Source: Spironucleus salmonicida
Taxonomy: Eukaryota; Fornicata; Diplomonadida; Hexamitidae
Direction of reading: 5' to 3'
Assembly (NCBI GenBank): GCA_000497125.2
Contig: CM035316.1
Coordinates: forward strand, 1,068,001-1,132,000
Length of the DNA: 64,000 nucleotides
Shown: positions 864 through 24,344 of the stretch, piece after piece
How positions within the stretch are numbered: position 1 is the first letter of the stretch
Layout: every line of letters begins with the position of its first letter
Position numbers and translations under genes: made by a program
Notes under the pieces: model-generated
What the model was told of the DNA's origin: nothing
Database searches by the model: none
The model's input: only the letters and a program-made list of their open reading frames with translations

Positions 864-989
864 ATGCCTGAAAACAAGCCTGAAACAGAAAAACCTCACA
901 AGGTTAAAGATATGTTTTAAAAAATGAAAGATAAAATGCATCATGAGCCCAAGACGAAAGAACCAACTCATCCAGAGCCTCAGGGATGA
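864..989 (+). CDS. Small Lys/Glu/Pro/His-rich protein (41 aa)
   Basis: Starts MPENKPETEKPH and ends with TGA; one TAA is read as Gln. The composition is highly charged (Lys, Glu, His, Pro) without hydrophobic segments, so a soluble, probably disordered peptide. The arm A/B homology begins inside this gene near base 884, so only arm A has the intact 5' end, while the arm B copy lacks a start codon. The family is not recognised. The call rests on the ATG, the TGA stop and codon-like composition in an otherwise AT-rich setting, so it is moderate at best. Confidence 0.45.
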
Positions 990-1165
990 ATGAGATTTAC
1001 ATTATTTATTTCATTTCTGACAAAAGCCCTACATCGCGGGATGCTATTGTAGAGTATGCTCTAATTTAAAGGAAAGTATAATGTATATTTATTTTAGTCA
1101 ACTATAGGGCAATAATGACGTCCTTACACAGGATAGAAGCAGGTGTAAAGGCAAATTAGAAAGGG

Positions 1166-1228
1166 TCACTTCATGCTCTGACTGTCACCAGAGCACTTGG
1201 TTCCGCCCTTGCAGCAGTTGGCCTACAT
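1166..1228 (-). CDS. 20-residue metallothionein-like peptide, arm A
   Basis: Arm A copy of the peptide described at 23994-24056: a TAG-encoded Gln at residue 2, three Cys and a TGA stop. Identical in reading to the arm B copy. Confidence 0.5.
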
Positions 1229-1660
1229 ATTTTATGGAATGACTAATAACTTTTTTTGTCGAATCAGACTAATTACAAAATAATATAACAATACTATAAG
1301 TTTACGTAAACGTATACTTTATTATCACTTTTATTAGTATTTAATATTTATATTAAGCTAGTTTCTCCTTTCCATTATCATATTCTTGACTTGACGTTGC
1401 AACATAAATACTATACCTAGGCTATAGGTATCGTTAAACTGAAGACAGAAACTCGTAATTCAAGGCTAAGCATAAATAATGCTTCCTGTACTTTATTCCG
1501 AACCAGTTGAGTCTGCACGAACCTCGGGCTATGCCTTTCGGTGCAGTCCGGCATGACGTGGGTGAATATATGCCTACGGTATCCTGGCGGGCTTGTGGTC
1601 GCTGCCATACGCCCTACTCCGTAGACCCTCGCAGTGCTACTTGGAGTGCCCTCCCACACC

Positions 1661-2077
1661 ATGGGAGCACAGTCCACGATCCTGACCGCCTCGCAGGTGC
1701 CCTCGCTACAGGACTACGAGTACCGCGTGTCCATGAGCGAGTTCCTCCACAAGCAGCAGAACGACGCGGCGGTCCTGCTGGTGTCCCTCGCAGCGTGCTA
1801 CTTCATCATGGCCTTCAACGGGCTCACTCTGCGCGACCAGGCCCTCGGGCTCACGGTCATCTTCTCCACCACCGCCCTGCTGGCCGCGTTCCTCGCGTAC
1901 CAGCTGCTGAACTTCTGGGTCAAGCGCCAGTTCGACGCCGCGCTCGCCGCGCTCCGGCTGCCGGGCTACCCCAACCCCGCGGGCGGCGCGGCAGCCACGG
2001 CGGGGCTCTGCTCCAACCTCGGGGTGCTCGCCGCCCTCGCCTTCCTCGCCCTGTCCAGCCTCGCAGTGTACCTCTGA
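1661..2077 (+). CDS. Three-TM small membrane protein (138 aa), arm A
   Basis: Arm A copy of the protein described at 23145-23561. The chosen ATG follows a C-rich leader (CCCTCCCACACC). An in-frame ATG 27 bases further upstream exists but lacks that leader. The protein sequence reads the same in both arms. Confidence 0.7.
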   Translation: MGAQSTILTASQVPSLQDYEYRVSMSEFLHKQQNDAAVLLVSLAACYFIMAFNGLTLRDQALGLTVIFSTTALLAAFLAYQLLNFWVKRQFDAALAALRLPGYPNPAGGAAATAGLCSNLGVLAALAFLALSSLAVYL

Positions 2078-2188
2078 GGGCGGGCCAGCACCCCATCCGC
2101 CCGCGACCGAAACACTGTAGATGCCCGGAACACAAATCGCCGCCGCGGCAGAAACAGCGGCCTCGGATTATCCACTCGCCCTCCCGAA

Positions 2189-2431
2189 ATGGGGACGTGC
2201 GCGCAGAGCAGCAGGCTGGAGGACTTCGAGAACGCCCTCAGCGGCAAGGTGGCGGTGCCGGCGATCGAGCTGGTCCTGGCGCAGCGCGTGGCGTAGCAGG
2301 GCGCCGCGGAGACCCCGGAGCTGTCGGAGCAGGCGCGGGGCGGGACGCGGACGCGGCAGTGCAGCAACCTCATGGACCTGGACCTCAGCGCCTTCCTGGA
2401 GGCGCTCGGCGAGGTGGAGCTGGGCCAGTGA
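2189..2431 (+). CDS. Unknown 80-residue protein, arm A
   Basis: Arm A copy of the protein described at 22791-23033. One in-frame TAG is read as Gln. It sits 111 bases downstream of the three-TM gene on the same strand. A few bases differ from arm B, without breaking the frame. Confidence 0.5.
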
Positions 2432-4900
2432 CGACCTTACTTGTATACCATTTTCACCGCCCTACTCGCGTAGAGCCCCGCACGAATGAAGCAGAACCCC
2501 GGCACCATATTACTAGCCGCAACTCTCCCAGACCGTGTTCGCCGCTGGGAAGGCAGAGTAGTAGTGCTATCCGAGCCAGTCTACAGCATATATAGCCTAT
2601 ATCCATCCTAGACGTATGTCGACAGCAAACACTACCACGCAGCGGTCTGCGAAGAAGGGCACTACGCAAGGCCGCCTAGTCATGCTACCACTGGGATTCG
2701 AAACATCCCTTACGCCCACCTTGGTCCTGAGCTCCGTCCTCTGCAGGATGGGCATAAAATTTATGCAATCATAGTGCGCATGGTGCTGTGGAGCTAGCAC
2801 TAAATACTAGCTGATGCCTCCGAGTCGCAACCGCAGAGCACGCTCTGGCGCAGCTGCTCAGTGCTGTTTCCACCCTGTGAGATGGAGTGTTTAGTACGTC
2901 TTAGCGCGTAAACTAGACCCCCTTTCGTCAACGTTTAGCTGGCGAAGTGCTAGAAAGCTTGCCAAAATTGCACTAAAAACTGATACCTGGATAGAATATT
3001 AGTCTTCGCGAGTCATTTCCATCGAGCAAGTGTCTTACCAAATGCAGCTATACTTACTAACTATGTGAAACCCTACTCTCAGAAAATATTTTGGTCGCAA
3101 GCAAGCCTCCAAATAGCGAGTTAGACATTTTGGTCTGTCCACGCGGAATTTCACTCCGAGATACGGCCAATATATTTAATAGCTAGTTTGGGTTTCTTGG
3201 GCCTGGTAGAGGGTCTCCGTACGCGTAGTAGCATGAAATTCCAATTAGGACATTTTGCAAATATCCCCACATAGGGCATATTAGTATACATTGTGTTGCC
3301 TTAGATTTTGGACGTCGGCGACGTTTGGATGAGTGGGGGCTTTCTGTGCGTTAGAGGGAGAGCCTGCAGCTAGTAACGATCCATATGGCCGAAGGTAGTT
3401 TTTCAGGGTTGCTAAAAGCTATTGTATCCGCGTACTCATAGTCATAACGCTCAGTAATGACTGACCTGGGTAGTCAGGTAGTTTGAGGAAGCAGGATGGC
3501 TAGTTTACGAAGGTAACGGAGCGCTGGGAATGTTGTTGGGCTTTGGGGCTAGCCTAATGGACAAATTCGCGTGATTTTAAGATTAAGCTTAGGCCTACGT
3601 GCCTCCTGCTGCTGGTGGCATGGCGGCCCTCATTTGCGCATCGACGCACAGGTCAGAAGAGTCGTACGGCTTAGTATTCTTGCCACTCTGCCGCAACATG
3701 TTCAGCTGCAAAGCTGGCGCCTGTCCTCCAGGGGCGTCTACTGCTCATTCGTACTGGAAGCTCGCGCGTGCTAGATCTGAACCACGAAGGGCAGCGGAGA
3801 CACCACACCGTATGCGGTTAAAGCCTTGGACGGCGTCCCGCAACGTGGCACTGCTTCAAGGGTGCAGCCAAGGTATTTGATCTTAGCCCTTCAGAATCTA
3901 CGCCGAGGGACCCAAGGCGAGCTTATTTGGGAGGCAGTGCAATATTACCTTCAGAGCACCGACCGTGGATCCAAACATGAACACGGCTTGCAAAATACCT
4001 CAAGCGCCTGGTAGTTTCTCCGCGCATCGTGTCCCGAGAGTTTTGTCGCAGTAAATTCCTAGGTCCAGGGATCACCAAGCGGATGGCATACGCTATCTGT
4101 TGTAAGTACTAGATGCCAGCGCAGCGAGGTCCTGTACACTTTGCTGACCACCGGGAATGAGTCTGAAACGTTATGCTTTCTTCACGAGGGCACTCTACGT
4201 TTAAAATACTTATATAAATATAATTTCCAAAAGCGCAACGCAGTAAAATGTGGTTCTGGTGTGGTAGTTAACCAGCCGTAGTACCTTATTCGGGATAGCC
4301 GTGTAGCTCCTCGCACATATGAATTCTTATTCCAATTTGAACACCCTTCGATAGCCTAGCCGCCAAGAAGGCGACGTTCGCCTCTTCCACTGCGGCGTAG
4401 AGGATAAGCTAGTAACAATGCTGAAAGCCTTTTGTGGAAGATTGACCTCCTTATGCTGACATATAAGCTGGGTGCTAGGTGCCACAGCTCAGACCTACCA
4501 TGCAGGCGATGATATGCTGCTCCTTTGGATGCTTTGGGGAATTTGGTGCAAATGCAGTGATAGGGAGATTCTGAGTTTCCCGTAGTCGCGGGAATTGGGC
4601 TCTGCAGGCCCATGTCCGGCCCACGACTTTACCCCACCTAGCACGGGACCCATTCGTCGAATTTCACTCTCTGGTAGGGGAGGCTGCGACGGACGAGGGC
4701 ACACCGAGCCCGCGCGTCCTGTGGGACCGAATGGACTCGTGGGCGGCGGGCGTACGAGCCCAGCCAGGTACACAGCCCGGCCTAGAATAAGCGGCGGCGC
4801 TGGCGTGGGTAGTGGCAGTCCTGCATGTTGCTACGAAAAAGTAGTGGGCATTCTACGGGACAACAATTACCACCACCATATAATAACCCGCGTGCCAGAC
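2432..4900. other. 2.4 kb stretch without a convincing gene, arm A
   Basis: Base composition is intermediate between the GC-rich genes and the AT-rich genome. Short open frames occur on both strands, but none looks like a protein and none continues well when TAR is read as Gln. No tRNA cloverleaf or rRNA segment was recognised. From about 4664 onward the sequence is also in copy C and forms the upstream region of the 181-residue gene, including an ATATAATAA box about 17 bases before its ATG. Arm B carries the same stretch with very few changes. Confidence 0.5.
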
Positions 4901-5446
4901 ATGGGCGAGACGGTCAGCAGGCTGAGCGACCGCGTCCGGACCGACCTGTAGAAGGTGGAGCAGGCGCAGGCCATCTTGGGGCACAAGCAGCCCCCGGAGG
5001 CGTCGGCGGTGATGGCGATGGCGAACCCCGTGCTCGTCGCGCAGCGCGCATCCCCGTCCCAGCCTGGGGTGCTGATGAAGAAGAACCAGAACGGTCGCGG
5101 GTGCCAGCCGGTCTCGGGCCTGTTCGCCCGGGACGAGGTTCTGCCGCCGCTGCTGGAGGACCAGCAGGCGCCCCTGCAGACGGCGCGGCCCAACCCGACC
5201 ATGGGAATGTCCGAGTTCGCGGTCAAGAAGATCGACACCGCGAAGCTGAAGCGGCAGGAGCATCCGGCGCACCTGGCCACCTCGCGCATATCGTCGCGGC
5301 CGTCCCAGATATTCGCGGCGCCGAGCAAAACGAAGCGGGGCGGGTCCATCATGGAGAAGATCGGAAGCAACCAGGTGGCGATCCGGCTGCCCAGCAGTGG
5401 GAGGACGATCCGGCTCACCATCGAGGGCGACGAGGAGATGGTCTGA
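4901..5446 (+). CDS. Unknown 181-residue basic protein, arm A
   Basis: Arm A copy of the protein described at 19776-20321. Two substitutions are private to this copy: Glu in place of Asp in the MGMSxFAV stretch, and Glu in place of Asp in KRQxHPAH. The single in-frame TAG (Gln17) is kept. Confidence 0.6.
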
Positions 5447-5576
5447 GTGAGGTGCTTTCGCGGCACCCTTCCATTCTCGCGGGCGGGTATATTATGTGCT
5501 AATTGGCGCGCAGGCCAGAGCCGCGTCCGCATTCGGAGTGTATACTCGGCCCTCGCGGCGGGCCATCCCTCCGCAA

Positions 5577-5774
5577 ATGCACCTGCCGCTGCTCCTCGCG
5601 CACACGGGCACCCCGTCCCCGGCCCGGCGCTCCCCCGGCCTCGCGACGCTGCCCTACCTGCAGCAGTGCGGCCTGCGGAACCAGCGCCTGCGCTCCTCCC
5701 TGGACGAGAAGTGGGGCCAGTTCGAGGCCATCAAGGCCCGGATCCGCCGCACGGCCAGCGGGCTGCGCCAGTGA
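5577..5774 (+). CDS. Unknown 65-residue basic protein, arm A
   Basis: Arm A copy of the protein described at 19448-19645, ending CAG TGA. Only 11 bases separate its stop from that of the convergent 119-residue gene. Confidence 0.5.
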   Translation: MHLPLLLAHTGTPSPARRSPGLATLPYLQQCGLRNQRLRSSLDEKWGQFEAIKARIRRTASGLRQ

Positions 5775-5785
5775 GCCTCGTTTTC

Positions 5786-6145
5786 TCACTCGCACGGCCG
5801 CTCCGGGTCTGGCGCGCGGCCCTTCAGACTGCAGCCCGGCGGCCGGGGGACCCGCCGCACCCGCGTCGGCCGGTGGGAGGGAGCCTCGTGCTGGCCCAGG
5901 AAGGCGCTGATCTCGTCCGCGCGCACGGCCTCGGTCCTCTGGCGCACCTGCTGCGCCTTGATGCGCGCGATGTCCTGGCGCAAGACGACTGCGGCTGGCT
6001 TGGCCTGCTCGGGCGGGTTGGTGAAGTGCAGCGAGGGCAGCTGCCGCACGGGGTCGTACCTGCCGACCTGCAGGAGCCGGGTCTGGAGGTTGACGGCGGC
6101 GCGGTTCTGCGCGTACTGCTTCTTGAGGTGCTTCGCGGCCATCAT
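5786..6145 (-). CDS. Unknown 119-residue protein, arm A
   Basis: Arm A copy of the protein described at 19077-19436, identical in reading to arm B. Confidence 0.6.
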   Translation of the reverse strand: MMAAKHLKKQYAQNRAAVNLQTRLLQVGRYDPVRQLPSLHFTNPPEQAKPAAVVLRQDIARIKAQQVRQRTEAVRADEISAFLGQHEAPSHRPTRVRRVPRPPGCSLKGRAPDPERPCE

Positions 6146-6261
6146 GGGGCAGGTGGCAGGGGGCGTATAATAACTAATATCGGTGTTCGGCGAAAGACCG
6201 CATACTGGCTAATACACGCACTCCACATGGGACGGCGCGGGCCAAAAGATAAACCAAGAGA

Positions 6262-7989
6262 TCACTGCGCGTAGTCGAACTGCATCTTGAAGTGGTGCAG
6301 GCTGAGCTGCCTGAGGCCGGCACGGTCCACCACGCCACGGATGTCCGCCCTGCAGTCGAAGAGGAACTTGATCCAGAGCGCGGCTGCGTCCAGGTCCGAG
6401 TCGCTGTAGAGCTGCCTGGGGATCGCGAGGCGCACGAAGTTCCCGCTGACGGCCTCCACGCTCTTGTAGGGCGCGTTGCCGTGGGGCGAGTAGAACGCGG
6501 AGACGCCGAGCTCGCAGCCGCGGATGCCCTTCGCGAGCATGAGGCCGACGAGGGCGTTGCCGAGGAACTGGGCGCGCTTGTCCCTGCCGAAGAACCTGTC
6601 CACGTCGATGTACACCGCGGAGGTGCCGCAGGGGTCGAGCACGGGGATGCCGAGCGCCTTGAGCTGGGCCGCGAACCGCTGGACCTGGTCGATCCTGCCC
6701 TTGAGGTAGTTGAACTCCACGACCTGCTGGAGGCCCGCGCACGCCGCCTTGATGTCGCGGCCGGTAAGGGCGCCGTAGGTGAAGTGGCCCACCTTGAGGA
6801 TGACGCCGTCCATGATCTGCTGGAGGATGCAGCCGGTCTCCTACCCCACGAACTGCCCGAAGTTAACCGACTCGGGGGCGAAGCATACCGCGCCGCCGCA
6901 GTTGGCGATGCCGTCCTTCTTGAGCGAGATGGTGAAGCCGTCCACGAGCGCGAAGGTCTTGTGCACGATCTCCCGGACGGACAGGGGCGAGTCCTCGATG
7001 GTCTTGATGAGGTAGGCGTTCTCGGCGAAGCGGCAGGCGTCCATGATGTAGGGGATACCGTGCTTCTTACAGAGGGCCGACACCGCCTCGATGTGCTGCA
7101 GCGACACGGGCTGGGAGCCGCCGGAGTTGTTGGTGATCGTGGTGAATACGATCGCGGTCTTCCCGGGGGCGGCCTCCACGTTGCGGCTGAGCAGCTCGAA
7201 GTCCCCGTCGCCGAGGTACTTGTCAGATGCGCAGTAGGTGCCATCGCGCACCTTGGGGTTGGGGTGGTTCATGAGGTTGAAGGTGACGCGGACGGTCTTG
7301 CCGTCGGGCGCGCGGAACGGCTTGTCCGTGATGTCCAGAATGTGGCCCGAGGTGGTGTCGAAGAAGTTGTTCGTGCAGATGACGTTGTAGTCGACTGCGC
7401 CCTCGATGGTCCGGTAGTCGCGGTTGACGAGGGCCTGTGCGAGTGCGGGGAACAGCTGGTTCTCGGCGCCGCGGCCCTGGTTGACGATGTAGTTGAAGTT
7501 CTTGCGGAGCTTGTACTGCTCGTTGAGGGCCTGGTTGCGGTGCTTGCCCAGGAACACCGAGGCGTAGCGCTCACCGAAGATGTCGGCCATGGTGTCGTTG
7601 AACTGGTACCAGCCCTCGTTGGAGCCGTAGGACTCGTCTCCCTGCATCATCTGGCCCCACTGCGCGGTGGTCATGGCGGAGGAGCCGGAGTCCGAGAGGA
7701 AGTCCACCTCGAGGTGGTCGGCGGGCATGTAGAAGGAGTTGAGCCCGACCTCGATGACCTTGGCGGCGCGGATCTGGAACTCTTCCCGGGGGTCCGCGGC
7801 CAGCTGGTTCTTGGGCTTGACCACGTGATTGATGAAGGGCCGGAAGGCGGAGTTGAGCGCCTGGGCCATCACGAGGAGCTCCGGGGGGATCTGGCTGACC
7901 CTGTCGGCCTGGGTAGTCTTCCAGGCCTCGAAGCGGTCGTAGAAGGACGTGAGGTAGGCGAGCTGCTGGGCGGGTTCCATGGCCTGCAT
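6262..7989 (-). CDS. tnaA: Tryptophanase, arm A
   Basis: Arm A copy of the enzyme described at 17233-18960. The in-frame TAG (Gln383) is preserved, as are the Lys-Lys-Asp cofactor motif and all other landmarks. One conservative-looking difference is visible: a glycine-to-alanine type change just after LLSRN/CSA in a shadow frame is silent here, so the protein is essentially unchanged. Confidence 0.93.
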
Positions 7990-8225
7990 TTTATGGGGGA
8001 AGGATTGAAAACGGGAGCGAAAAATTAGTCATGCTTTCGGGGCGGCAGGCGATTCCGAGGAAACTTAAGAATACTTCGAAATGAACTGTACAACGGCGGG
8101 AGAATATCGGTATGAAGGGGAAAAGTTGGTCACCAATTATAAGTAGTTGTGCGAGTGGATACAATTTGGGCCCGCAAGGAGTGCACCACTCCGATCTGAT
8201 TTGTGATTTGGTGAGAAAGCAAGGG

Positions 8226-8579
8226 TCACTTGGCGAGCATGGCGACGATGTCCTCCTCGATGGTCGCCTTGGGGCTCTCGACGATCCTGCCGACCTCCTG
8301 CGCGCCCTTGAAGACGACGAGGGTGGGGATGTTGGTGACCCCGAGGCGCTTGGCGATGCCCTGGGGGTCGTTCTTCTGCCTGTCGACCACGACGTCGACG
8401 ATCTTGACGGCGGGGAGCGCGGCCACGATCTTCTTCAGCAGGGGCAGCGTGTAGGTGCAGTCGCCGCACCAGTCGGCGTGCACGACGGTGATGCTAAGGT
8501 CCTTGTGGGCCTGGAGGGCGGCCACGGCGGCGGCGACGGGCTCGTACCAGTCTGAGGTTTCGTACTGCGCGTAGTTCAT
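8226..8579 (-). CDS. Thioredoxin-family protein, arm A
   Basis: Arm A copy of the protein described at 16643-16996. The WCGDC active site is intact, and the one base difference visible against B and C (near 8497) is silent. Confidence 0.88.
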   Translation of the reverse strand: MNYAQYETSDWYEPVAAAVAALQAHKDLSITVVHADWCGDCTYTLPLLKKIVAALPAVKIVDVVVDRQKNDPQGIAKRLGVTNIPTLVVFKGAQEVGRIVESPKATIEEDIVAMLAK

Positions 8580-8632
8580 GCGGGTGGAGCGGTGATTTAA
8601 AACCGATCGGGCCGCAAGCGTATAATACAGTG

Positions 8633-9436
8633 TCACATTCCCATCACCACGCGCTTCACCCACATCGCGCCCGCCTCCCTCTTGAGCACCAGCACCAGCC
8701 GGCGCTCGCCCACGAACACGCTCGGGTTCCAGCCCACGCCCAGCAGCGCCCCCAGCTGCCCGTGCTGCCGCAGCGCCTCCTGCACCGCCCGGAAGCCGAA
8801 GTGGCCCGCGACCCCCGCGCCCTCGCCGGCCTGCGCGTAGCTGGCGGACACCTGGCTCATCTGCGTCCCGAGCTGCAGCGTCTTCACGCCCTCCGCGTGC
8901 AGCACCGCCACCTCCACGGTCTCGTCGCCCTCCACCAGCAGGCCGAAGAGCTGCGGCGCCCGCGCGAACAGCTGGAACTCCTGGCTGGGCGCGCCGTCGC
9001 CGAGCCCGTCCTCGACCATCTGCAGCTCCTGGACGACCGCGTTCAGGCTCTGGTTGCGCAGAAACCCGATCGGCACCTGCAGCTTCGCCTCGATCGCGTG
9101 CTCCGCGAAGTCGCTGCCCTCCTGGAAGAAGCGGGCGTCCAGGAAGGGCTTGTCGCCGGCCTCCTGGGTGAGAACGAAGCTTGCGTCGAAGTCCTGGAGG
9201 TTCTCGAGTTGGAAGATGCGGGAGAAGCGCACGCCCACCGGGTGCGAGCCGGCGAGGTCCAGGGCGCTGAAGAGGAAGGAGCTGGCGAGGCTGTAGACGC
9301 CGCCGGCCTGGGGGTCGAAGACCTGCACGGTGGCGGAGGTGGGCCGGAAGATGAAGACCGCGGTGTCCGAGAGCAGCGCCAGCAGCTGGGTGAACTGCTG
9401 GAGGTGCCGCGCCGTGAGGTAGAGCCGCAGGTGCAT
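8633..9436 (-). CDS. Putative sliding-clamp (Hus1/PCNA-like) protein, arm A
   Basis: Arm A copy of the protein described at 15786-16589. It starts 18 bases beyond the TGA of VPS36, after the same CCACTCC element. Confidence 0.45.
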   Translation of the reverse strand: MHLRLYLTARHLQQFTQLLALLSDTAVFIFRPTSATVQVFDPQAGGVYSLASSFLFSALDLAGSHPVGVRFSRIFQLENLQDFDASFVLTQEAGDKPFLDARFFQEGSDFAEHAIEAKLQVPIGFLRNQSLNAVVQELQMVEDGLGDGAPSQEFQLFARAPQLFGLLVEGDETVEVAVLHAEGVKTLQLGTQMSQVSASYAQAGEGAGVAGHFGFRAVQEALRQHGQLGALLGVGWNPSVFVGERRLVLVLKREAGAMWVKRVVMGM

Positions 9437-9454
9437 TGTGGAGTGGGACTACGC

Positions 9455-13535: not shown

Positions 13536-13561
13536 GGAGTGGTAAACTGCTATATAAATGT

Positions 13562-14763: not shown

Positions 14764-14770
14764 TATTATA
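14764..14770 (+). promoter_or_regulatory. TATTATA box upstream of VPS36
   Basis: TATTATA ends 22 bases before the VPS36 ATG. The same box lies 20 bases before the 119-residue gene (19050-19056) and 41 bases before the thioredoxin gene (16595-16601), where it stands out in GC-rich surroundings. Likely a TATA-like core promoter element; inferred from recurrence. Confidence 0.4.
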
Positions 14771-14792
14771 TACCAATCGCCCCAATGCCAGA

Positions 14793-15767
14793 ATGGACAT
14801 CAAGCGGTTCCGCCCTCTAAATTTCTCCACCCACGCCGAGTCCGACCGCCACGCCCCGTATCTACTCTCGGACGAAAGAGTCTTCCAGGACGCGGCCCTG
14901 AGCTTCGAGGAGTGCTAGGCGCGCGCTTTCCTGACGCAGACCAGCCTCCACTTACAGGTGGAGGGCGCGTTCTTCTGCTTTAACCTCCACGACGTGACCA
15001 ACGTGCAGAGGACCCCCGCCGGCATCACCCTGTACTTTGGCCCGAAGCGGTACGCCCTGCATGGCTTTGTGACTCCTGCGGCTCTGGCCGAGTTTTTCAA
15101 CGCGACCATGCAGCAGGTGTCCGCCCGGAAATTTATCTCCGCCCTCCCGGTGCAGCAGCGCGAGCAGGCGCTCACCAACGCACTTTAGTTCGCGATATCG
15201 ACCTCCTCGAACACCTTCGCGCAGCTGCAGCAGAACGCGGCGTCGCTGCTGGAGCTGATCGCCAAGATCCGCCGCGTGATCGCCCAGAACCGGTTCCAGG
15301 ACGACGCGCTCAAGGGCGAGGTGGCGCTGATCGACCAGGAGCTGGACCTGCAGATCCAGAGCCCCGCGCGCGACCTGCCCCGCCTCCGGGACGAGCTGGG
15401 CGGGGTGCTGGGCCGGATGCAGGCGCGCGGCATCATGCCGCTGGACCGCGTGTACGGGCGCTGGAACAAGGCGCGCAGCGGGAACCTGATCGCGCCCGAC
15501 GCGATGGTCCGGGTGTGCGAGGGGCTGGACGGCTGGGCGGTGAAGGTGCTGAACGGGCGGAAGTACCTCCTGGACCGGAGCTTCGCGGCGGACATCAACG
15601 AGCGCATCCGCGGCCGGACGTGCGAGCTGCACGGCTTCCGCTTCCTGCGCCAGGGCGACTTCACGGGCTTCGAGGTGGACTGGCTGGAGGAGATGTGCCA
15701 GCGCGGCAAGTTCGTCTGCTACGACGGCGCGGAGCAGCGGCAGTACTTCTTCAACGCGGTGCAGTGA
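14793..15767 (+). CDS. VPS36: VPS36-like ESCRT-II subunit (324 aa)
   Basis: VPS36 binds ubiquitin and phosphoinositide through an N-terminal GLUE domain and joins VPS22 and VPS25 in ESCRT-II for endosomal sorting. The frame runs from MDIKRFRPLNF through two TAG codons (Gln42, Gln132) to a CAG-TGA end. Residues 1-110 resemble a GLUE/PH-type fold (VEGAFFCFNLHDVTNV, GITLYFG). Residues about 130-324 fit the EAP30 family: a helical stretch, then around residue 215 MPLDRVYGRWNKARSG, which parallels the 'DVYCLVNRARG' segment of animal VPS36, then two winged-helix-like blocks ending YFFNAVQ. The length is near that of short family members. It ends 18 bases before the clamp gene. Family assignment is by recall of motifs, so the GLUE part is the less certain half. 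Confidence 0.75.
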
Positions 15768-15775
15768 GCGTAGTC

Positions 15776-15782
15776 CCACTCC
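15776..15782 (+). promoter_or_regulatory. CCACTCC start-proximal element (clamp gene)
   Basis: CCACTCC lies three bases before the ATG of the clamp gene and wholly within the 18-base gap after the VPS36 stop. The same element precedes many starts across the window, which suggests an initiator-type promoter. Confidence 0.5.
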
Positions 15783-15785
15783 ACA

Positions 15786-16589
15786 ATGCACCTGCGGCTC
15801 TACCTCACGGCGCGGCACCTCCAGCAGTTCACCCAGCTGCTGGCGCTGCTCTCGGACACCGCGGTCTTCATCTTCCGGCCCACCTCCGCCACCGTGCAGG
15901 TCTTCGACCCCCAGGCCGGCGGCGTCTACAGCCTCGCCAGCTCCTTCCTCTTCAGCGCCCTGGACCTCGCCGGCTCGCACCCGGTGGGCGTGCGCTTCTC
16001 CCGCATCTTCCAACTCGAGAACCTCCAGGACTTCGACGCAAGCTTCGTTCTCACCCAGGAGGCCGGCGACAAGCCCTTCCTGGACGCCCGCTTCTTCCAG
16101 GAGGGCAGCGACTTCGCGGAGCACGCGATCGAGGCGAAGCTGCAGGTGCCGATCGGGTTTCTGCGCAACCAGAGCCTGAACGCGGTCGTCCAGGAGCTGC
16201 AGATGGTCGAGGACGGGCTCGGCGACGGCGCGCCCAGCCAGGAGTTCCAGCTGTTCGCGCGGGCGCCGCAGCTCTTCGGCCTGCTGGTGGAGGGCGACGA
16301 GACCGTGGAGGTGGCGGTGCTGCACGCGGAGGGCGTGAAGACGCTGCAGCTCGGGACGCAGATGAGCCAGGTGTCCGCCAGCTACGCGCAGGCCGGCGAG
16401 GGCGCGGGGGTCGCGGGCCACTTCGGCTTCCGGGCGGTGCAGGAGGCGCTGCGGCAGCACGGGCAGCTGGGGGCGCTGCTGGGCGTGGGCTGGAACCCGA
16501 GCGTGTTCGTGGGCGAGCGCCGGCTGGTGCTGGTGCTCAAGAGGGAGGCGGGCGCGATGTGGGTGAAGCGCGTGGTGATGGGAATGTGA
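15786..16589 (+). CDS. Putative sliding-clamp protein, Hus1/PCNA-like (267 aa)
   Basis: Open without any TAR codon from MHLRLYLTARHLQQF to VKRVVMGM-TGA. Length (267), N-terminal beta-alpha-beta pattern (helix HLQQFTQLLALLS, strands AVFIFRPTSATVQVF), a second half repeating this pattern, and a C-terminal strand (LVLVLKREAGAMWVKRVV) fit a DNA sliding clamp. The mid-region KLQVPIGFLRNQSLN resembles Hus1's inter-domain region more than PCNA's. If correct it would act in DNA repair or checkpoint signalling (9-1-1) at the nucleus. I see no PIP-binding loop motif that proves the call. With only 18 bases from the VPS36 stop, its promoter must overlap VPS36 coding sequence, or it is co-transcribed. 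Confidence 0.45.
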   Translation: MHLRLYLTARHLQQFTQLLALLSDTAVFIFRPTSATVQVFDPQAGGVYSLASSFLFSALDLAGSHPVGVRFSRIFQLENLQDFDASFVLTQEAGDKPFLDARFFQEGSDFAEHAIEAKLQVPIGFLRNQSLNAVVQELQMVEDGLGDGAPSQEFQLFARAPQLFGLLVEGDETVEVAVLHAEGVKTLQLGTQMSQVSASYAQAGEGAGVAGHFGFRAVQEALRQHGQLGALLGVGWNPSVFVGERRLVLVLKREAGAMWVKRVVMGM

Positions 16590-16642
16590 CACTGTATTAT
16601 ACGCTTGCGGCCCGATCGGTTTTAAATCACCGCTCCACCCGC

Positions 16643-16996
16643 ATGAACTACGCGCAGTACGAAACCTCAGACTGGTACGAGCCCGTCGCCGCCGCCGTGG
16701 CCGCCCTCCAGGCCCACAAGGACCTCAGCATCACCGTCGTGCACGCCGACTGGTGCGGCGACTGCACCTACACGCTGCCCCTGCTGAAGAAGATCGTGGC
16801 CGCGCTCCCCGCCGTCAAGATCGTCGACGTCGTGGTCGACAGGCAGAAGAACGACCCCCAGGGCATCGCCAAGCGCCTCGGGGTCACCAACATCCCCACC
16901 CTCGTCGTCTTCAAGGGCGCGCAGGAGGTCGGCAGGATCGTCGAGAGCCCCAAGGCGACCATCGAGGAGGACATCGTCGCCATGCTCGCCAAGTGA
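16643..16996 (+). CDS. Thioredoxin-family protein (117 aa)
   Basis: A single thioredoxin fold. The start MNYAQYETSDWY is followed by strand LSITVVHADWCGDC, whose WCGDC active site (about residues 37-41) replaces the usual WCGPC. The family cis-proline appears in NIPTLVVF (about residue 83), followed by the GAQEVGRIVE strand. No signal peptide or TM segment, so cytosolic. It likely reduces protein disulfides; the Asp in the CxxC loop would change redox potential and partner choice relative to classical thioredoxins. Ends AAG-TGA. Its TATTATA box and a TTTTAAAT run lie within the 53-base gap after the clamp gene. Three copies with unchanged protein. Confidence 0.9.
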   Translation: MNYAQYETSDWYEPVAAAVAALQAHKDLSITVVHADWCGDCTYTLPLLKKIVAALPAVKIVDVVVDRQKNDPQGIAKRLGVTNIPTLVVFKGAQEVGRIVESPKATIEEDIVAMLAK

Positions 16997-17232
16997 CCCT
17001 TGCTTTCTCACCAAATCACAAATCAGATCGGAGTGGTGCACTCCTTGCGGGCCCAAATTGTATCCACTCGCACAACTACTTATAATTGGTGACCAACTTT
17101 TCCCCTTCATACCGATATTCTCCCGCCGTTGTACAGTTAGCTTCGAAGTATTCTTAAGTTTCCTCGGAATCGCCTGCCGCCCCGAAAGCATGACTAATTT
17201 TTCGCTCCCGTTTTCAATCCTTCCCCCATAAA

Positions 17233-18960
17233 ATGCAAGCCATGGAACCCGCCCAGCAGCTCGCCTACCTCACGTCCTTCTACGACCGCTTCGAGGCCTG
17301 GAAGACTACCCAGGCCGACAGGGTCAGCCAGATCCCCCCGGAGCTCCTCGTGATGGCCCAGGCGCTCAACTCCGCCTTCCGGCCCTTCATCAATCACGTG
17401 GTCAAGCCCAAGAACCAGCTGGCCGCGGACCCCCGGGAAGAGTTCCAGATCCGCGCCGCCAAGGTCATCGAGGTCGGGCTCAACTCCTTCTACATGCCCG
17501 CCGACCACCTCGAGGTGGACTTCCTCTCGGACTCCGGCTCCTCCGCCATGACCACCGCGCAGTGGGGCCAGATGATGCAGGGAGACGAGTCCTACGGCTC
17601 CAACGAGGGCTGGTACCAGTTCAACGACACCATGGCCGACATCTTCGGTGAGCGCTACGCCTCGGTGTTCCTGGGCAAGCACCGCAACCAGGCCCTCAAC
17701 GAGCAGTACAAGCTCCGCAAGAACTTCAACTACATCGTCAACCAGGGCCGCGGCGCCGAGAACCAGCTGTTCCCCGCACTCGCACAGGCCCTCGTCAACC
17801 GCGACTACCGGACCATCGAGGGCGCAGTCGACTACAACGTCATCTGCACGAACAACTTCTTCGACACCACCTCGGGCCACATCCTGGACATCACGGACAA
17901 GCCGTTCCGCGCGCCCGACGGCAAGACCGTCCGCGTCACCTTCAACCTCATGAACCACCCCAACCCCAAGGTGCGCGATGGCACCTACTGCGCATCTGAC
18001 AAGTACCTCGGCGACGGGGACTTCGAGCTGCTCAGCCGGAACGTGGAGGCCGCCCCCGGGAAGACCGCGATCGTATTCACCACGATCACCAACAACTCCG
18101 GCGGCTCCCAGCCCGTGTCGCTGCAGCACATCGAGGCGGTGTCGGCCCTCTGTAAGAAGCACGGTATCCCCTACATCATGGACGCCTGCCGCTTCGCCGA
18201 GAACGCCTACCTCATCAAGACCATCGAGGACTCGCCCCTGTCCGTCCGGGAGATCGTGCACAAGACCTTCGCGCTCGTGGACGGCTTCACCATCTCGCTC
18301 AAGAAGGACGGCATCGCCAACTGCGGCGGCGCGGTATGCTTCGCCCCCGAGTCGGTTAACTTCGGGCAGTTCGTGGGGTAGGAGACCGGCTGCATCCTCC
18401 AGCAGATCATGGACGGCGTCATCCTCAAGGTGGGCCACTTCACCTACGGCGCCCTTACCGGCCGCGACATCAAGGCGGCGTGCGCGGGCCTCCAGCAGGT
18501 CGTGGAGTTCAACTACCTCAAGGGCAGGATCGACCAGGTCCAGCGGTTCGCGGCCCAGCTCAAGGCGCTCGGCATCCCCGTGCTCGACCCCTGCGGCACC
18601 TCCGCGGTGTACATCGACGTGGACAGGTTCTTCGGCAGGGACAAGCGCGCCCAGTTCCTCGGCAACGCCCTCGTCGGCCTCATGCTCGCGAAGGGCATCC
18701 GCGGCTGCGAGCTCGGCGTCTCCGCGTTCTACTCGCCCCACGGCAACGCGCCCTACAAGAGCGTGGAGGCCGTCAGCGGGAACTTCGTGCGCCTCGCGAT
18801 CCCCAGGCAGCTCTACAGCGACTCGGACCTGGACGCAGCCGCGCTCTGGATCAAGTTCCTCTTCGACTGCAGGGCGGACATCCGTGGCGTGGTGGACCGT
18901 GCCGGCCTCAGGCAGCTCAGCCTGCACCACTTCAAGATGCAGTTCGACTACGCGCAGTGA
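17233..18960 (+). CDS. tnaA: Tryptophanase, PLP-dependent (575 aa)
   Basis: Tryptophanase cleaves L-tryptophan to indole, pyruvate and ammonia. The frame begins MQAMEPAQQLAYL and continues through one in-frame TAG (bases 18379-18381, Gln383) to CAG-TGA. Landmarks in order: FLSDSGSSAM (about residue 98), NQGRGAEN, NNFFDTTSGH, ITNNSGGQ-type segment TITNNSGGSQPVS, MDACRFAENAY, then the cofactor lysine in SLKKDG (Lys357/358), GHFTYGALTGRD and a C-terminal LHHF close to the bacterial RHF end. About 100 residues longer than bacterial enzymes, mainly an N-terminal extension of ~50 residues plus small insertions. Cytosolic. The enzyme is patchily distributed in anaerobic protists, usually read as old lateral transfer; here it fully obeys the host code. 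Tyrosine phenol-lyase is the main alternative. Confidence 0.94.
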
Positions 18961-19049
18961 TCTCTTGGTTTATCTTTTGGCCCGCGCCGTCCCATGTGGA
19001 GTGCGTGTATTAGCCAGTATGCGGTCTTTCGCCGAACACCGATATTAGT

Positions 19050-19056
19050 TATTATA
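19050..19056 (+). promoter_or_regulatory. TATTATA box upstream of 119-residue gene
   Basis: TATTATA followed by a C-rich run, ending 20 bases before the ATG. Same arrangement as at VPS36. Confidence 0.4.
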
Positions 19057-19076
19057 CGCCCCCTGCCACCTGCCCC

Positions 19077-19436
19077 ATGATGGCCGCGAAGCACCTCAAG
19101 AAGCAGTACGCGCAGAACCGCGCCGCCGTCAACCTCCAGACCCGGCTCCTGCAGGTCGGCAGGTACGACCCCGTGCGGCAGCTGCCCTCGCTGCACTTCA
19201 CCAACCCGCCCGAGCAGGCCAAGCCAGCCGCAGTCGTCTTGCGCCAGGACATCGCGCGCATCAAGGCGCAGCAGGTGCGCCAGAGGACCGAGGCCGTGCG
19301 CGCGGACGAGATCAGCGCCTTCCTGGGCCAGCACGAGGCGCCCTCCCACCGGCCGACGCGGGTGCGGCGGGTCCCCCGGCCGCCGGGCTGCAGTCTGAAG
19401 GGCCGCGCGCCAGACCCGGAGCGGCCGTGCGAGTGA
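19077..19436 (+). CDS. Unknown basic 119-residue protein
   Basis: Starts MMAAKHLKKQYAQN and ends GAG-TGA. No TAR codon. The first ~90 residues are helix-friendly, rich in Gln, Arg, Lys and Ala (RIKAQQVRQRTEAV), with a central PSLHFTNPPEQAKP stretch. The C-terminal 30 residues are Pro/Arg-rich (RPTRVRRVPRPPG) and look disordered. No TM segment or signal peptide. Not recognised; a small cytoskeletal or nucleic-acid-binding protein is possible. It converges on the 65-residue gene with 11 bases between stops. Three copies, with one Ala-to-Val change in copy C. Confidence 0.6.
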   Translation: MMAAKHLKKQYAQNRAAVNLQTRLLQVGRYDPVRQLPSLHFTNPPEQAKPAAVVLRQDIARIKAQQVRQRTEAVRADEISAFLGQHEAPSHRPTRVRRVPRPPGCSLKGRAPDPERPCE

Positions 19437-19447
19437 GAAAACGAGGC

Positions 19448-19645
19448 TCACTGGCGCAGCCCGCTGGCCGTGCGGCGGATCCGGGCCTTGATGGCCTCGA
19501 ACTGGCCCCACTTCTCGTCCAGGGAGGAGCGCAGGCGCTGGTTCCGCAGGCCGCACTGCTGCAGGTAGGGCAGCGTCGCGAGGCCGGGGGAGCGCCGGGC
19601 CGGGGACGGGGTGCCCGTGTGCGCGAGGAGCAGCGGCAGGTGCAT
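19448..19645 (-). CDS. Unknown basic 65-residue protein
   Basis: Starts MHLPLLLAHTGTPSP and ends LRQ-TGA. After a short Leu-rich N-terminus and a Pro/Ser/Arg linker comes a helical, amphipathic C-terminal half (LRSSLDEKWGQFEAIKARI). No TAR codon. The C-rich leader CCATCCCTCCGCAA precedes the ATG. Not recognised; may be a small coiled-coil partner protein. Identical in all three copies. Confidence 0.5.
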   Translation of the reverse strand: MHLPLLLAHTGTPSPARRSPGLATLPYLQQCGLRNQRLRSSLDEKWGQFEAIKARIRRTASGLRQ

Positions 19646-19775
19646 TTGCGGAGGGATGGCCCGCCGCGAGGGCCGAGTATACACTCCGAATGCGGACGCG
19701 GCTCTGGCCTGCGCGCCAATTAGCACATAATATACCCGCCCGCGAGAATGGAAGGGTGCCGCGAAAGCACCTCAC

Positions 19776-20321
19776 TCAGACCATCTCCTCGTCGCCCTCG
19801 ATGGTGAGCCGGATCGTCCTCCCACTGCTGGGCAGCCGGATCGCCACCTGGTTGCTTCCGATCTTCTCCATGATGGACCCGCCCCGCTTCGTTTTGCTCG
19901 GCGCCGCGAATATCTGGGACGGCCGCGACGATATGCGCGAGGTGGCCAGGTGCGCCGGATGGTCCTGCCGCTTCAGCTTCGCGGTGTCGATCTTCTTGAC
20001 CGCGAAGTCGGACATTCCCATGGTCGGGTTGGGCCGCGCCGTCTGCAGGGGCGCCTGCTGGTCCTCCAGCAGCGGCGGCAGAACCTCGTCCCGGGCGAAC
20101 AGGCCCGAGACCGGCTGGCACCCGCGACCGTTCTGGTTCTTCTTCATCAGCACCCCAGGCTGGGACGGGGATGCGCGCTGCGCGACGAGCACGGGGTTCG
20201 CCATCGCCATCACCGCCGACGCCTCCGGGGGCTGCTTGTGCCCCAAGATGGCCTGCGCCTGCTCCACCTTCTACAGGTCGGTCCGGACGCGGTCGCTCAG
20301 CCTGCTGACCGTCTCGCCCAT
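19776..20321 (-). CDS. Unknown basic 181-residue protein
   Basis: The protein starts MGETVSRLSDRVRTDL and a TAG (Gln17) leads on into KVEQAQAILGHKQ. The N-terminal ~30 residues are helical. The middle is low-complexity (Pro, Gln, Ala, Asn, Arg). The C-terminal ~50 residues (SRPSQIFAAPSKTKRG, then a beta-like SNQVAIRLPSSGRTIRLTI) end acidic (EGDEEMV). The helix, linker and small C-terminal beta module resemble in layout chromosomal-passenger (Borealin-type) proteins, but no diagnostic residue supports this. The frame stays open upstream without ATG, so the start rests on the ATG behind an ATATAATAA box. Three copies with private Glu/Asp, Pro/Arg and Val/Met changes. Confidence 0.6.
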
Positions 20322-22790
20322 GTCTGGCACGCGGGTTATTATATGGTGGTGGTAATTGTTGTCCCGTAGAATGCCCACTACTTTTTCGTAGCAACATGCA
20401 GGACTGCCACTACCCACGCCAGCGCCGCCGCTTATTCTAGGCCGGGCTGTGTACCTGGCTGGGCTCGTACGCCCGCCGCCCACGAGTCCATTCGGTCCCA
20501 CAGGACGCGCGGGCTCGGTGTGCCCTCGTCCGTCGCAGCCGCCCCTACCAGAGAGTGAAATTCGACGAATGGGTCCCGTGCTAGGTGGGGTAAAGTCGTG
20601 GGCCGGACATGGGCCTGCAGAGCCCAATTCCCGCGACTACGGGAAACTCCGAATCTCCCTATCACTGCATCTGCACCAAATTCCCCAAAGCATCCAAAGG
20701 AGCAGCATATCATCGCCTGCATGGTAGGTCTGAGCTGTGGCACCTAGCACCCAGCTTATATGTCACCATAAGGAGGTCAATCTTCCACAAAAGGCTTTCA
20801 GCATTGTTACTAGCTTATCCTCTACGCCGCAGTGGAAGAGGCGAACGTCGCCTTCTTGGCGGCTAGGCTATCGAAGGGTGTTCAAATTGGAATAAGAATT
20901 CATATGTGCGAGGAGCTACACGGCTATCCCGAATAAGGTACTACGGCTGGTTAACTACCACACCAGAACCACATTTTACTGCGTTGCGCTTTTGGAAATT
21001 ATATTTATATAAGTATTTTAAACGTAGAGTGCCCTCGTGAAGAAAGCATAACGTTTCAGACTCATTCCCGGTGGTCAGCAAAGTGTACAGGACCTCGCTG
21101 CGCTGGCATCTAGTACTTACAACAGATAGCGTATGCCATCCGGTTGGTGATCCCTGGACCTAGGAATTTACTGCGACAAAACTCTCGGGACACGATGCGC
21201 GGAGAAACTACCAGGCGCTTGAGGTATTTTGCAAGCCGTGTTCATGTTTGGATCCACGGTCGGTGCTCTGAAGGTAATATTGCACTGCCTCCCAAATAAG
21301 CTCGCCTTGGGTCCCTCGGCGTAGATTCTGAAGGGCTAAGATCAAATACCTTGGCTGCACCCTTGAAGCAGTGCCACGTTGCGGGACGCCGTCCAAGGCT
21401 TTAACCGCATACGGTGTGGTGTCTCCGCTGCCCTTCGTGGTTCAGATCTAGCACGCGCGAGCTTCCAGTACGAATGAGCAGTAGACGCCCCTGGAGGACA
21501 GGCGCCCGCTTTGCAGCTGAACATGTTGCGGCAGAGTGGCAAGAATACTAAGCCGTACGACTCTTCTGACCTGTGCGTCGATGCGCAAATGAGGGCCGCC
21601 ATGCCACCAGCAGCAGGAGGCACGTAGGCCTAAGCTTAATCTTAAAATCACGCGAATTTGTCCATTAGGCTAGCCCCAAAGCCCAACAACATTCCCAGCG
21701 CTCCGTTACCTTCGTAAACTAGCCATCCTGCTTCCTCAAACTACCTGACTACCCAGGTCAGTCGTTACTGAGCGTTATGACTATGAGTACGCGGATACAA
21801 TAGCTTTTAGCAACCCTGAAAAACTACCTTCGGCCATATGGATCGTTACTAGCTGCAGGCTCTCCCTCTAACGCACAGAAAGCCCCCACTCATCCAAACG
21901 TCGCCGACGTCCAAAATCTAAGGCAACACAATGTATACTAATATGCCCTATGTGGGGATATTTGCAAAATGTCCTAATTGGAATTTCATGCTACTACGCG
22001 TACGGAGACCCTCTACCAGGCCCAAGAAACCCAAACTAGCTATTAAATATATTGGCCGTATCTCGGAGTGAAATTCCGCGTGGACAGACCAAAATGTCTA
22101 ACTCGCTATTTGGAGGCTTGCTTGCGACCAAAATATTTTCTGAGAGTAGGGTTTCACATAGTTAGTAAGTATAGCTGCATTTGGTAAGACACTTGCTCGA
22201 TGGAAATGACTCGCGAAGACTAATATTCTATCCAGGTATCAGTTTTTAGTGCAATTTTGGCAAGCTTTCTAGCACTTCGCCAGCTAAACGTTGACGAAAG
22301 GGGGTCTAGTTTACGCGCTAAGACGTACTAAACACTCCATCTCACAGGGTGGAAACAGCACTGAGCAGCTGCGCCAGAGCGTGCTCTGCGGTTGCGACTC
22401 GGAGGCATCAGCTAGTATTTAGTGCTAGCTCCACAGCACCATGCGCACTATGATTGCATAAATTTTATGCCCATCCTGCAGAGGACGGAGCTCAGGACCA
22501 AGGTGGGCGTAAGGGATGTTTCGAATCCCAGTGGTAGCATGACTAGGCGGCCTTGCGTAGTGCCCTTCTTCGCAGACCGCTGCGTGGTAGTGTTTGCTGT
22601 CGATATACGTCTAGGATGGATATAGGCTATATATGCTGTAGACTGGCTCGGATAGCACTACTACTCTGCCTTCCCCGCGGCGAACACGGTCTGGGAGAGT
22701 TGCGGCTAGTAATATGGTGCCGGGGTTCTGCTTCATTCGTGCGGGGCTCTACGCGAGTAGGGCGGTGAAAATGGTATACAAGTAAGGTCG
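20322..22790. other. 2.4 kb stretch without a convincing gene, arm B
   Basis: Reverse complement of 2432-4900 with only a few substitutions. Near-perfect conservation here reflects recent duplication or homogenisation, not selection by itself. A GGGAT-loop-ATCCC hairpin near 22515 superficially recalls a tRNA T-arm but no tRNA can be folded around it. Confidence 0.5.
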
Positions 22791-23033
22791 TCACTGGCCC
22801 AGCTCCACCTCGCCGAGCGCCTCCAGGAAGGCGCTGAGGTCCAGGTCCATGAGGTTGCTGCACTGCCGCGTCCGCGCCCCGCCCCGCGCCTGCTCCGACA
22901 GCTCCGGGGTCTCCGCGGCGCCCTGCTACGCCACGCGCTGCACCAGGACCAGCTCGATCGCCGGCACCGCCACCTTGCCGCTGAGGGCGTTCTCGAAGTC
23001 CTCCAGCCTGCTGCTCTGCGCGCACGTCCCCAT
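22791..23033 (-). CDS. Unknown 80-residue protein
   Basis: Starts MGTCAQSSRLEDFENAL, passes one TAG read as Gln in the middle (LAQRVAQQGAAE; arm B has HQRVA at this point) and ends LGQ-TGA. Two helix-like segments (LEDFENALSGKVAVPAIEL and MDLDLSAFLEALGEVEL) flank a Gly/Thr/Arg linker. Acidic overall, no TM segment. Not recognised; two amphipathic helices suggest a small protein-protein interaction module. The upstream leader TCCACTCGCCCTCCCGAA is a C-rich start context. Present in arms A and B only. Confidence 0.5.
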
Positions 23034-23144
23034 TTCGGGAGGGCGAGTGGATAATCCGAGGCCGCTGTTTCTGCCGCGGCGGCGATTTGTGTTCCGGGCA
23101 TCTACAGTGTTTCGGTCGCGGGCGGATGGGGTGCTGGCCCGCCC

Positions 23145-23561
23145 TCAGAGGTACACTGCGAGGCTGGAGAGGGCGAGGAAGGCGAGGGCGGCGAGCACCC
23201 CGAGGTTGGAGCAGAGCCCCGCCGTGGCTGCCGCGCCGCCCGCGGGGTTGGGGTAGCCCGGCAGCCGGAGCGCGGCGAGCGCGGCGTCGAACTGGCGCTT
23301 GACCCAGAAGTTCAGCAGCTGGTACGCGAGGAACGCGGCCAGCAGGGCGGTGGTGGAGAAGATGACCGTGAGCCCGAGGGCCTGGTCGCGCAGAGTGAGC
23401 CCGTTGAAGGCCATGATGAAGTAGCACGCTGCGAGGGACACCAGCAGGACCGCCGCGTCGTTCTGCTGCTTGTGGAGGAACTCGCTCATGGACACGCGGT
23501 ACTCGTAGTCCTGCAGCGAGGGCACCTGCGAGGCGGTCAGGATCGTGGACTGTGCTCCCAT
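23145..23561 (-). CDS. Three-TM small membrane protein (138 aa)
   Basis: Starts MGAQSTILTASQVPSL and ends VYL-TGA. A polar N-terminal ~40 residues (DYEYRVSMSEFLHKQQND) is followed by three hydrophobic segments at about residues 42-60, 67-88 and 118-138, with a short polar loop containing WVKRQFD. No signal peptide before the first TM, so probably co-translationally inserted with a cytosolic N-terminus. No TAR codon. Not recognised; size and layout recall small ER or Golgi membrane proteins. In arms A and B, not in copy C. Confidence 0.7.
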   Translation of the reverse strand: MGAQSTILTASQVPSLQDYEYRVSMSEFLHKQQNDAAVLLVSLAACYFIMAFNGLTLRDQALGLTVIFSTTALLAAFLAYQLLNFWVKRQFDAALAALRLPGYPNPAGGAAATAGLCSNLGVLAALAFLALSSLAVYL

Positions 23562-23993
23562 GGTGTGGGAGGGCACTCCAAGTAGCACTGCGAGGGTCTA
23601 CGGAGTAGGGCGTATGGCAGCGACCACAAGCCCGCCAGGATACCGTAGGCATATATTCACCCACGTCATGCCGGACTGCACCGAAAGGCATAGCCCGAGG
23701 TTCGTGCAGACTCAACTGGTTCGGAATAAAGTACAGGAAGCATTATTTATGCTTAGCCTTGAATTACGAGTTTCTGTCTTCAGTTTAACGATACCTATAG
23801 CCTAGGTATAGTATTTATGTTGCAACGTCAAGTCAAGAATATGATAATGGAAAGGAGAAACTAGCTTAATATAAATATTAAATACTAATAAAAGTGATAA
23901 TAAAGTATACGTTTACGTAAACTTATAGTATTGTTATATTATTTTGTAATTAGTCTGATTCGGCAAAAAAAGTTATTAGTCATTCCATAAAAT

Positions 23994-24056
23994 ATGTAGG
24001 CCAACTGCTGCAAGGGCGGAACCAAGTGCTCTGGTGACAGTCAGAGCATGAAGTGA
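23994..24056 (+). CDS. 20-residue metallothionein-like Cys peptide
   Basis: MQANCCKGGTKCSGDSQSMK with TAG-encoded Gln2 and a TGA stop. A CC doublet plus a third Cys in a small, polar, Lys/Gly/Ser peptide, resembling the 43-residue metallothionein-like peptide. The strongest support is the 3' flank: bases from the last Lys codon onward (AAGTGACCCTTTCTAATTT) match the flank of the 43-residue gene at 18 of 19 positions. It may be a very short relative or the surviving 3' end of one. Copies in both inverted arms are unchanged. Confidence 0.5.
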
Positions 24057-24232
24057 CCCTTTCTAATTTGCCTTTACACCTGCTTCTATCCTGTGTAAGG
24101 ACGTCATTATTGCCCTATAGTTGACTAAAATAAATATACATTATACTTTCCTTTAAATTAGAGCATACTCTACAATAGCATCCCGCGATGTAGGGCTTTT
24201 GTCAGAAATGAAATAAATAATGTAAATCTCAT

Positions 24233-24344
24233 TCATCCCTGAGGCTCTGGATGAGTTGGTTCTTTCGTCTTGGGCTCATGATGCATTTTATCTTTCACTT
24301 TTTAAAACATATCTTTAACCTTGTGAGGTTTTTCTGTGTCAGGC
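24233..24344 (-). pseudogene. 5'-truncated copy of 41-residue gene
   Basis: Arm B end carries the 3' two thirds of the gene at 864-989, down to its TGA, but the sequence upstream of AAGCCTGAC is unrelated and offers no in-frame ATG. A Met codon has also become GTG. The arm boundary thus cuts this gene. Confidence 0.6.

Follow-up and report, generated by a model that had tools for sequence, protein, structure and literature searches.

Inverted triplication of a tryptophanase-bearing block in the Spironucleus salmonicida genome assembly

How did two nearly identical 10.8-kb gene blocks come to face each other across a short spacer in the genome of the diplomonad Spironucleus salmonicida, and are they real? 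The question is raised by a stretch of 64,000 nucleotides of assembly GCA_000497125.2 (contig CM035316.1, positions 1,068,001 to 1,132,000), here called the window, in which a preliminary description had noticed a palindrome with arms of about 10.8 kb and a spacer of about 1.9 kb. Positions are given in window coordinates, with negative numbers lying to the left of the window start. What the locus holds is a long, real-looking inverted triplication, which belongs to a known class of rearrangement and lies in a genome already known as duplication-rich. Its parts are as follows.

876 to 11660, plus strand: arm A, 10,785 base pairs (bp); its outer edge falls within a small gene at 864-989, which is whole here.
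11661 to 13561, no strand: spacer, 1,901 bp, guanine-plus-cytosine (GC) content 0.32, with open reading frames (ORFs) at 11704-12099 and 13094-13498.
13562 to 24346, minus strand: arm B, the inverted arm A, with 31 mismatches and no insertions or deletions; it cuts the small gene.
24347 to 24499, no strand: linker between arm B and copy C, 153 bp.
24500 to 30852, plus strand: copy C of the core, 6,353 bp, corresponding to 4661-11013 of arm A and in the same orientation.

The two arms are 99.7% identical, an inverted match far above chance. A longer self-match pairs 876-11678 with 13544-24346 (10,803 bp, spacer of 1,865 bp) at the cost of 37 mismatches; because six of these crowd into the final 18 bp, we set the inner ends of the arms at 11660 and 13562. 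The dimensions first proposed for the palindrome stand, while its proposed start at 884 turned out to be the first mismatch within the match, the edge of which is at 876. Two further details of that description were borne out. It placed unrelated DNA at the arm ends, and in sequence comparison the near flanks of the copies have no close relatives. It also stated that arm B cuts a small gene left intact in arm A: 864-989 is a 41-amino-acid ORF, whole in A, whereas arm B lacks its first four codons and offers no in-frame ATG within 60 nucleotides upstream. The spacer appears to be single copy: searching the genome with 11500-13500 brought back nothing apart from the query and the edge of the arm, and comparison of the full spacer with 124 kb of sequence showed no relative.

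The two-arm picture was correct for the arms and incomplete for the locus, where an inverted triplication sits among further nested duplications; copy C had been missed, and so had a direct repeat of 3,724 bp on either side of the whole block. Starting 153 bp past arm B, copy C differs from A at 21 sites and from B at 9, and it has no equivalent of the outer 3.8 kb of the arms (876-4660 in A) or of 11014-11660. The layout is thus A> <B C>, three copies in the alternating orientation A(+) B(-) C(+). The linker gave no other match in the genome search and one weak local match of 27 nucleotides in the 124 kb compared, and a search for the source of the right flank of copy C gave only short, weak matches. 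Searches with the arm over the genome of 14.47 Mb in 37 contigs, the match counts of which are lower bounds, returned no core copies elsewhere; two diverged fragments of the outer arm part were found 2.4-8.8 kb left of the window. The contig, of 1,922,500 bases, continues on both sides of the locus, so the distal chromosome is retained in the assembly.

Chimeric long reads or a misjoin could have produced an inverted copy on paper, and the arms, at 10.8 kb, are only somewhat shorter than the read N50 of 14.6 kb reported for what is likely the window's assembly (PMC9509377). We nevertheless regard an assembly artefact as unlikely. The spacer, the linker, and the near flanks have no close relatives, the third copy has junctions of its own, and the arms differ at 31 sites, or 0.29%, which exceeds the allelic variation of 0.09% (PMC9509377). 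Furthermore, three tryptophanase copies were already counted in 2014 in an earlier assembly (excerpt of PMC3916229) built from 454 and Illumina data (PMC9509377), which argues against a pure artefact of assembly. The arrangement of those three copies is now laid out.

The differences among the copies bear on the order in which they arose. Within the core, A and B differ at 16 sites, A and C at 21, and B and C at 9; of the 23 variable sites, 14 are private to A, 2 to B, and 7 to C. Along the whole arm, the A-B differences fall into 15 in the outer 3,785 bp, 16 in the core, and none in the inner 647 bp. Branches of equal length are disfavoured (p = 0.009; p = 0.028 with the cluster at 8081-8083 counted once). 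Under a clock, such unequal private differences would place the A/B copying first and derive C from B, and the small gene, whole in A and beheaded in B, makes A seem the holder of the older outer edge. The simplest history would be that A gave rise to B and that part of B then gave rise to C, with an inversion each time. The cluster at 8081-8083, where three adjacent bases set A apart from B and C, lies in the gap between the tryptophanase and thioredoxin genes, upstream of the tryptophanase start. Where A and B differ by a weak versus a strong base, A holds the weak one at 18 of 23 sites (p = 0.011), an excess for which we have no explanation beyond the larger number of private changes in A.

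We consider it probable, with moderate confidence, that the locus is an inverted segmental triplication produced by replication-based inverted duplication, from A to B and then from B to C, with junctions that were remodelled. In a first step, a fold-back or template switch during replication would have carried the copying from A across the 1.9-kb spacer to form B; in a second, part of B would have been copied again, with its orientation reversed, to form C. Asymmetry in the making of the B/C junction, or in its later reshaping, would have left the 153-bp linker and a copy C devoid of the outer 3.8 kb. Judged from the sequence, the lasting effect would most likely be that the cell has tryptophanase and the adjoining genes in three working doses.

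Events of this kind have been described in yeast, bacteria, and human as origin-dependent inverted-repeat amplification (ODIRA), tandem inversion duplication (TID), and DUP-TRP/INV-DUP (duplication-triplication/inverted-duplication) rearrangements, which likewise have an odd copy number and an inverted middle copy (excerpt of PMC4689423). According to the same excerpt, ODIRA/TID inverted triplications also retain the distal chromosome, and their amplified genes can be beneficial. The present locus differs from them in that C is shorter than A and B, in that its B/C junction is a 153-bp linker and not a loop of local sequence, and in that its copies have diverged by 0.1-0.3%, so that they are not fresh as in laboratory events. 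Copies of equal extent, with both junctions at short, interrupted inverted repeats whose loop is local sequence, were not found, and later remodelling would give the same appearance. The misfit concerns the B/C junction, where the copies are of unequal extent and the linker has no source, so we read the locus as working like ODIRA/TID and later remodelled, while strict membership in the class fails. Several points weigh against a replication-based triplication. The copying order depends on few sites and on a clock, with no outgroup; no short inverted repeat was demonstrable at the ancestral junctions; and the linker and the right flank of C have no traceable source. In addition, selection on dosage is supported for part of the block only, and on small numbers, because nonsynonymous changes make up all four codon differences in one ORF of 181 amino acids and three of four in a Vps36-like gene.

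Is such an arrangement peculiar to this locus? The duplicated regions of S. salmonicida make up 19.2% of the assembly reported in PMC9509377 and have been described as stretches of at least 2 kb at 95% identity that are GC-rich and carry several genes (Xu et al. 2022, PMC9509377); the locus likewise has a self-match of at least 2,000 bp at 95% identity and a GC content above the genome mean. Apart from a 64-kb tandem repeat, the passages of that paper on duplications give no orientation, and the terms "inverted", "inversion", and "palindrom" are absent from its main text. Self-comparison of the surrounding stretch of the same contig (C1:1008001-1142000), with minimum values of 500 bp and 90% identity, gave 15 distinct pairs; 10 are inverted and 5 direct, and they are not mutually independent. 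Inverted pairs include -38576 to -36004 with -51700 to -48860 and -9035 to -8383 with -2822 to -2169. The direct repeat bracketing the triplication consists of two copies.

-7487 to -3764: left copy of the 3,724-bp direct repeat.
33025 to 36748, plus strand: right copy, 99.1% identical, holding most of an amino-acid transporter ORF (PF01490).

The repeat also overlaps an ORF of 569 amino acids without a Pfam match. A second palindrome lies at C1:1037148-1040099 (-30852 to -27901); it is 2.96 kb long, with 97.6% arm identity and an AT-rich centre.

As a control we took C3:500001-560000, 60 kb picked without prior sight and, being a single stretch, a thin sample. An inverted pair lies in it at C3:539162-546563; the two arms, of 2,350 bp each and with a GC content of 0.40, are identical and are separated by a 2.7-kb spacer with a GC content of 0.23. 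The control further contains a 1.6-kb direct repeat at 93.8% identity and a short tandem array. With close-spaced, near-identical inverted pairs both nearby and in the control, the triplication seems to be a large instance of a repeated tendency, and inverted-duplication architecture looks recurrent in this genome. Large inverted duplications thus occur in a diplomonad nuclear genome assembly; among the matches listed by our literature search, there was no paper on inverted or palindromic duplications in diplomonads.

The preliminary description held that the arms were prone to loop out, to convert, or to seed amplicons. Going by geometry, the spacer could be inverted by exchange between A and B, 19,839 bp could be excised by exchange between A and C, and 40,512 bp could be excised between the outer direct repeats. 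The sequence itself gives no sign that looping out, conversion, or amplicon formation happens. In Leishmania, also a protozoan, amplification involves direct and inverted repeats around gene blocks (excerpt of PMC4028189), and repeats of this kind at the present locus would in principle permit circular or linear amplicons (same source). In contrast to Leishmania amplicons, the copies here are chromosomal and are known from the assembly alone.

The near identity of the arms could have another cause, namely that they are old and have been kept alike by gene conversion, which, if GC biased, would have raised the GC content of coding and noncoding DNA in the block. Arms more than 99% identical around an apparently single-copy spacer are what a palindrome under conversion looks like. 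Mammalian sex-chromosome palindromes have arms that are likewise more than 99% identical and GC-richer than their flanks, and those of the primate X provide the precedent (excerpt of PMC8981503). GC content is 0.59 in the arm, 0.65 in copy C, and 0.61 in 1500-11500, compared with 0.34 in the locally nonduplicated DNA of the same 134 kb. Uncalled DNA within the block (1500-11000) still has 53% GC, and the intergenic mean of S. salmonicida is 25.4% (excerpt of PMC3916229); because noncoding DNA of the block is also GC-rich, codon choice alone is insufficient as an explanation. In ORFs picked by hand, GC at third codon positions (GC3) was 0.84-0.98 for 8 arm ORFs, with 0.47-0.71 in their 120-bp flanks, and did not overlap with the values of 12 other ORFs of the window, at 0.20-0.76 and 0.12-0.45, respectively; the latter include the gene for ribosomal protein L22 (GC3 of 0.38).

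In the palindromes measured, arms were GC-richer than flanks in three of three cases and than the spacer in two of two. Among GC-rich 500-bp windows, 56 of 73 were locally duplicated, against 38 of the remaining 195 (11 of 28 against 27 of 180 with the triplication locus left out), and duplicated regions of the assembly as a whole have 44.7% GC against 30.7% elsewhere (PMC9509377), which we count in favour of conversion. Other observations run the opposite way. By majority rule among A, B, and C, 12 changes went from GC to AT and 4 from AT to GC (p = 0.077, small numbers), and the A/B mismatches are not significantly clustered, their spacing not being unusual (maximum-gap p = 0.22). The outer 625 bp of the arms have 34% GC though duplicated alike, the nearby 99.1% direct repeat has only 36%, and 17 of the 73 GC-rich windows have no local duplication. 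All 23 variable core sites are two-state, which could not reveal a conversion mosaic by conflict because there are three copies and no outgroup. At a divergence of 0.3%, the high GC content cannot postdate the duplication, except in the case of old arms that have been homogenised. The locus also departs from the mammalian palindromes in its third copy, in changes among copies that lean to AT, and in that no conversion tract was demonstrated. On balance, old arms under conversion are a minority possibility that we rate well below a replication-based triplication. Still more speculative is a wider proposal, which we put forward as doubtful, that inverted duplication is a leading and continuing mode of gene amplification in this diplomonad and that ectopic GC-biased conversion between inverted copies builds GC-rich islands; if true, it would explain why duplicated S. 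salmonicida DNA is GC-richer than the rest. Should reads confirm the structure, the locus would offer a test of sequence exchange between inverted copies and of the cause of GC-richness in duplicated DNA.

The genes of the block were delimited with TAA and TAG read as glutamine, under which the long ORFs are open. A codon model trained on three arm A ORFs was used for scoring, with the best 32 ORFs shown. Ten genes per arm had been proposed; ten arm A ORFs do score as coding, although two of them, of 80 and 65 amino acids, are uncertain. All eight ORFs called in the core are open in A, B, and C. The main features, in arm A coordinates, are these.

1661 to 2077, plus strand: ORF of 138 amino acids, in arms A and B and absent from C; the DNA to the left of the window contains diverged fragments of the same stretch.
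4901 to 5446, plus strand: ORF of 181 amino acids, no Pfam match; codon differences nonsynonymous in 4 of 4.
5786 to 6145, minus strand: ORF of 119 amino acids, no Pfam match; one synonymous and one nonsynonymous codon difference.
6262 to 7989, minus strand: tryptophanase (PF01212), with counterparts in B and C.
8226 to 8579, minus strand: thioredoxin-family protein (PF14595/PF00085).
8633 to 9436, minus strand: protein of 267 amino acids, matching S. salmonicida V6LWB2_9EUKA.
9455 to 10429, minus strand: Vps36-like protein (EAP30/Vps36, PF04157).
10789 to 10920, minus strand: cysteine/lysine-rich ORF of 43 amino acids; no synonymous and one nonsynonymous codon difference.

The tryptophanase protein was found at three places in the genome, all at this locus, and its three codon differences among the copies are all synonymous. 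The thioredoxin-family gene has one synonymous and no nonsynonymous codon difference, and the 267-amino-acid gene has none at all, so that the three genes together show four synonymous and no amino-acid differences. The Vps36-like gene has one synonymous and three nonsynonymous differences, and the 65-amino-acid ORF has none. Between A and B only, there are two synonymous and no nonsynonymous differences in the 138-amino-acid ORF, and none and two, respectively, in that of 80 amino acids. Signs of constraint are thus restricted to some genes of the block, and the numbers are small. The Vps36-like assignment is modest (28.0 bits in Pfam against a cut-off of 26.8; a weak match to Vps36 in PDB, E value of 0.09), and the 138-amino-acid ORF matches no Pfam family. 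For the 267-amino-acid protein, the one match in the protein database (UniRef) was the uncharacterised V6LWB2_9EUKA, identical at 248 of 257 aligned residues; the differing residues are a single substitution, a short stretch, and the C terminus, which resemble the products of shifted frames. It has no Pfam or PDB match, and its single-sequence fold (mean predicted local distance difference test score, pLDDT, of 38.5) was too poor for searching.

These genes also bear on the idea that the GC-rich block was inserted, either as foreign DNA or as a mobile element, and multiplied afterwards. Its GC content of 0.61 against 33.5% for the genome (PMC9509377), the sharp steps in composition that mark the left edges of copy C and the upstream fragments, and the description of tryptophanase as bacterial-like (excerpt of PMC3916229) would fit an insertion. 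The block, however, holds the Vps36-like gene, which is eukaryotic, and its tryptophanase is closest, among named hits, to those of two diplomonads, Hexamita inflata (63%) and Giardia muris (60%). A Pfam scan of seven arm ORFs detected neither a transposase nor an integrase domain, and the genome search returned no further core copies. We consider a foreign or mobile origin very improbable. Bacterial contamination was dropped as a candidate, since the long ORFs use TAA and TAG as glutamine codons and the block proteins match diplomonads. ORFs called with the standard code lie on top of one another on the two strands, a pattern to be expected where GC-rich DNA yields frame shadows. We also rejected ribosomal DNA and other known RNA loci, as no Rfam family came up to its gathering score and ARAGORN predicted no tRNA in the window.

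For Giardia intestinalis, it has been suggested that the losses of tryptophanase and of a transporter could go together (excerpt of PMC7762791). We entertained, as conjecture, a connection of tryptophanase with the amino-acid transporters encoded nearby, and did not adopt it.

Other repeats were seen along the way. A 385-bp direct repeat, 95.6% identical, occupies 46150-46534 and 58863-59247. At C4:1117953-1129134, at least seven matches of 70 bases (77%) recur at a regular spacing of 1,852 bases, which suggests a long tandem array. A sequence of about 85 bases from left of the window is present in at least five places in C7:1147715-1174265, at 96-98% identity and in both orientations.

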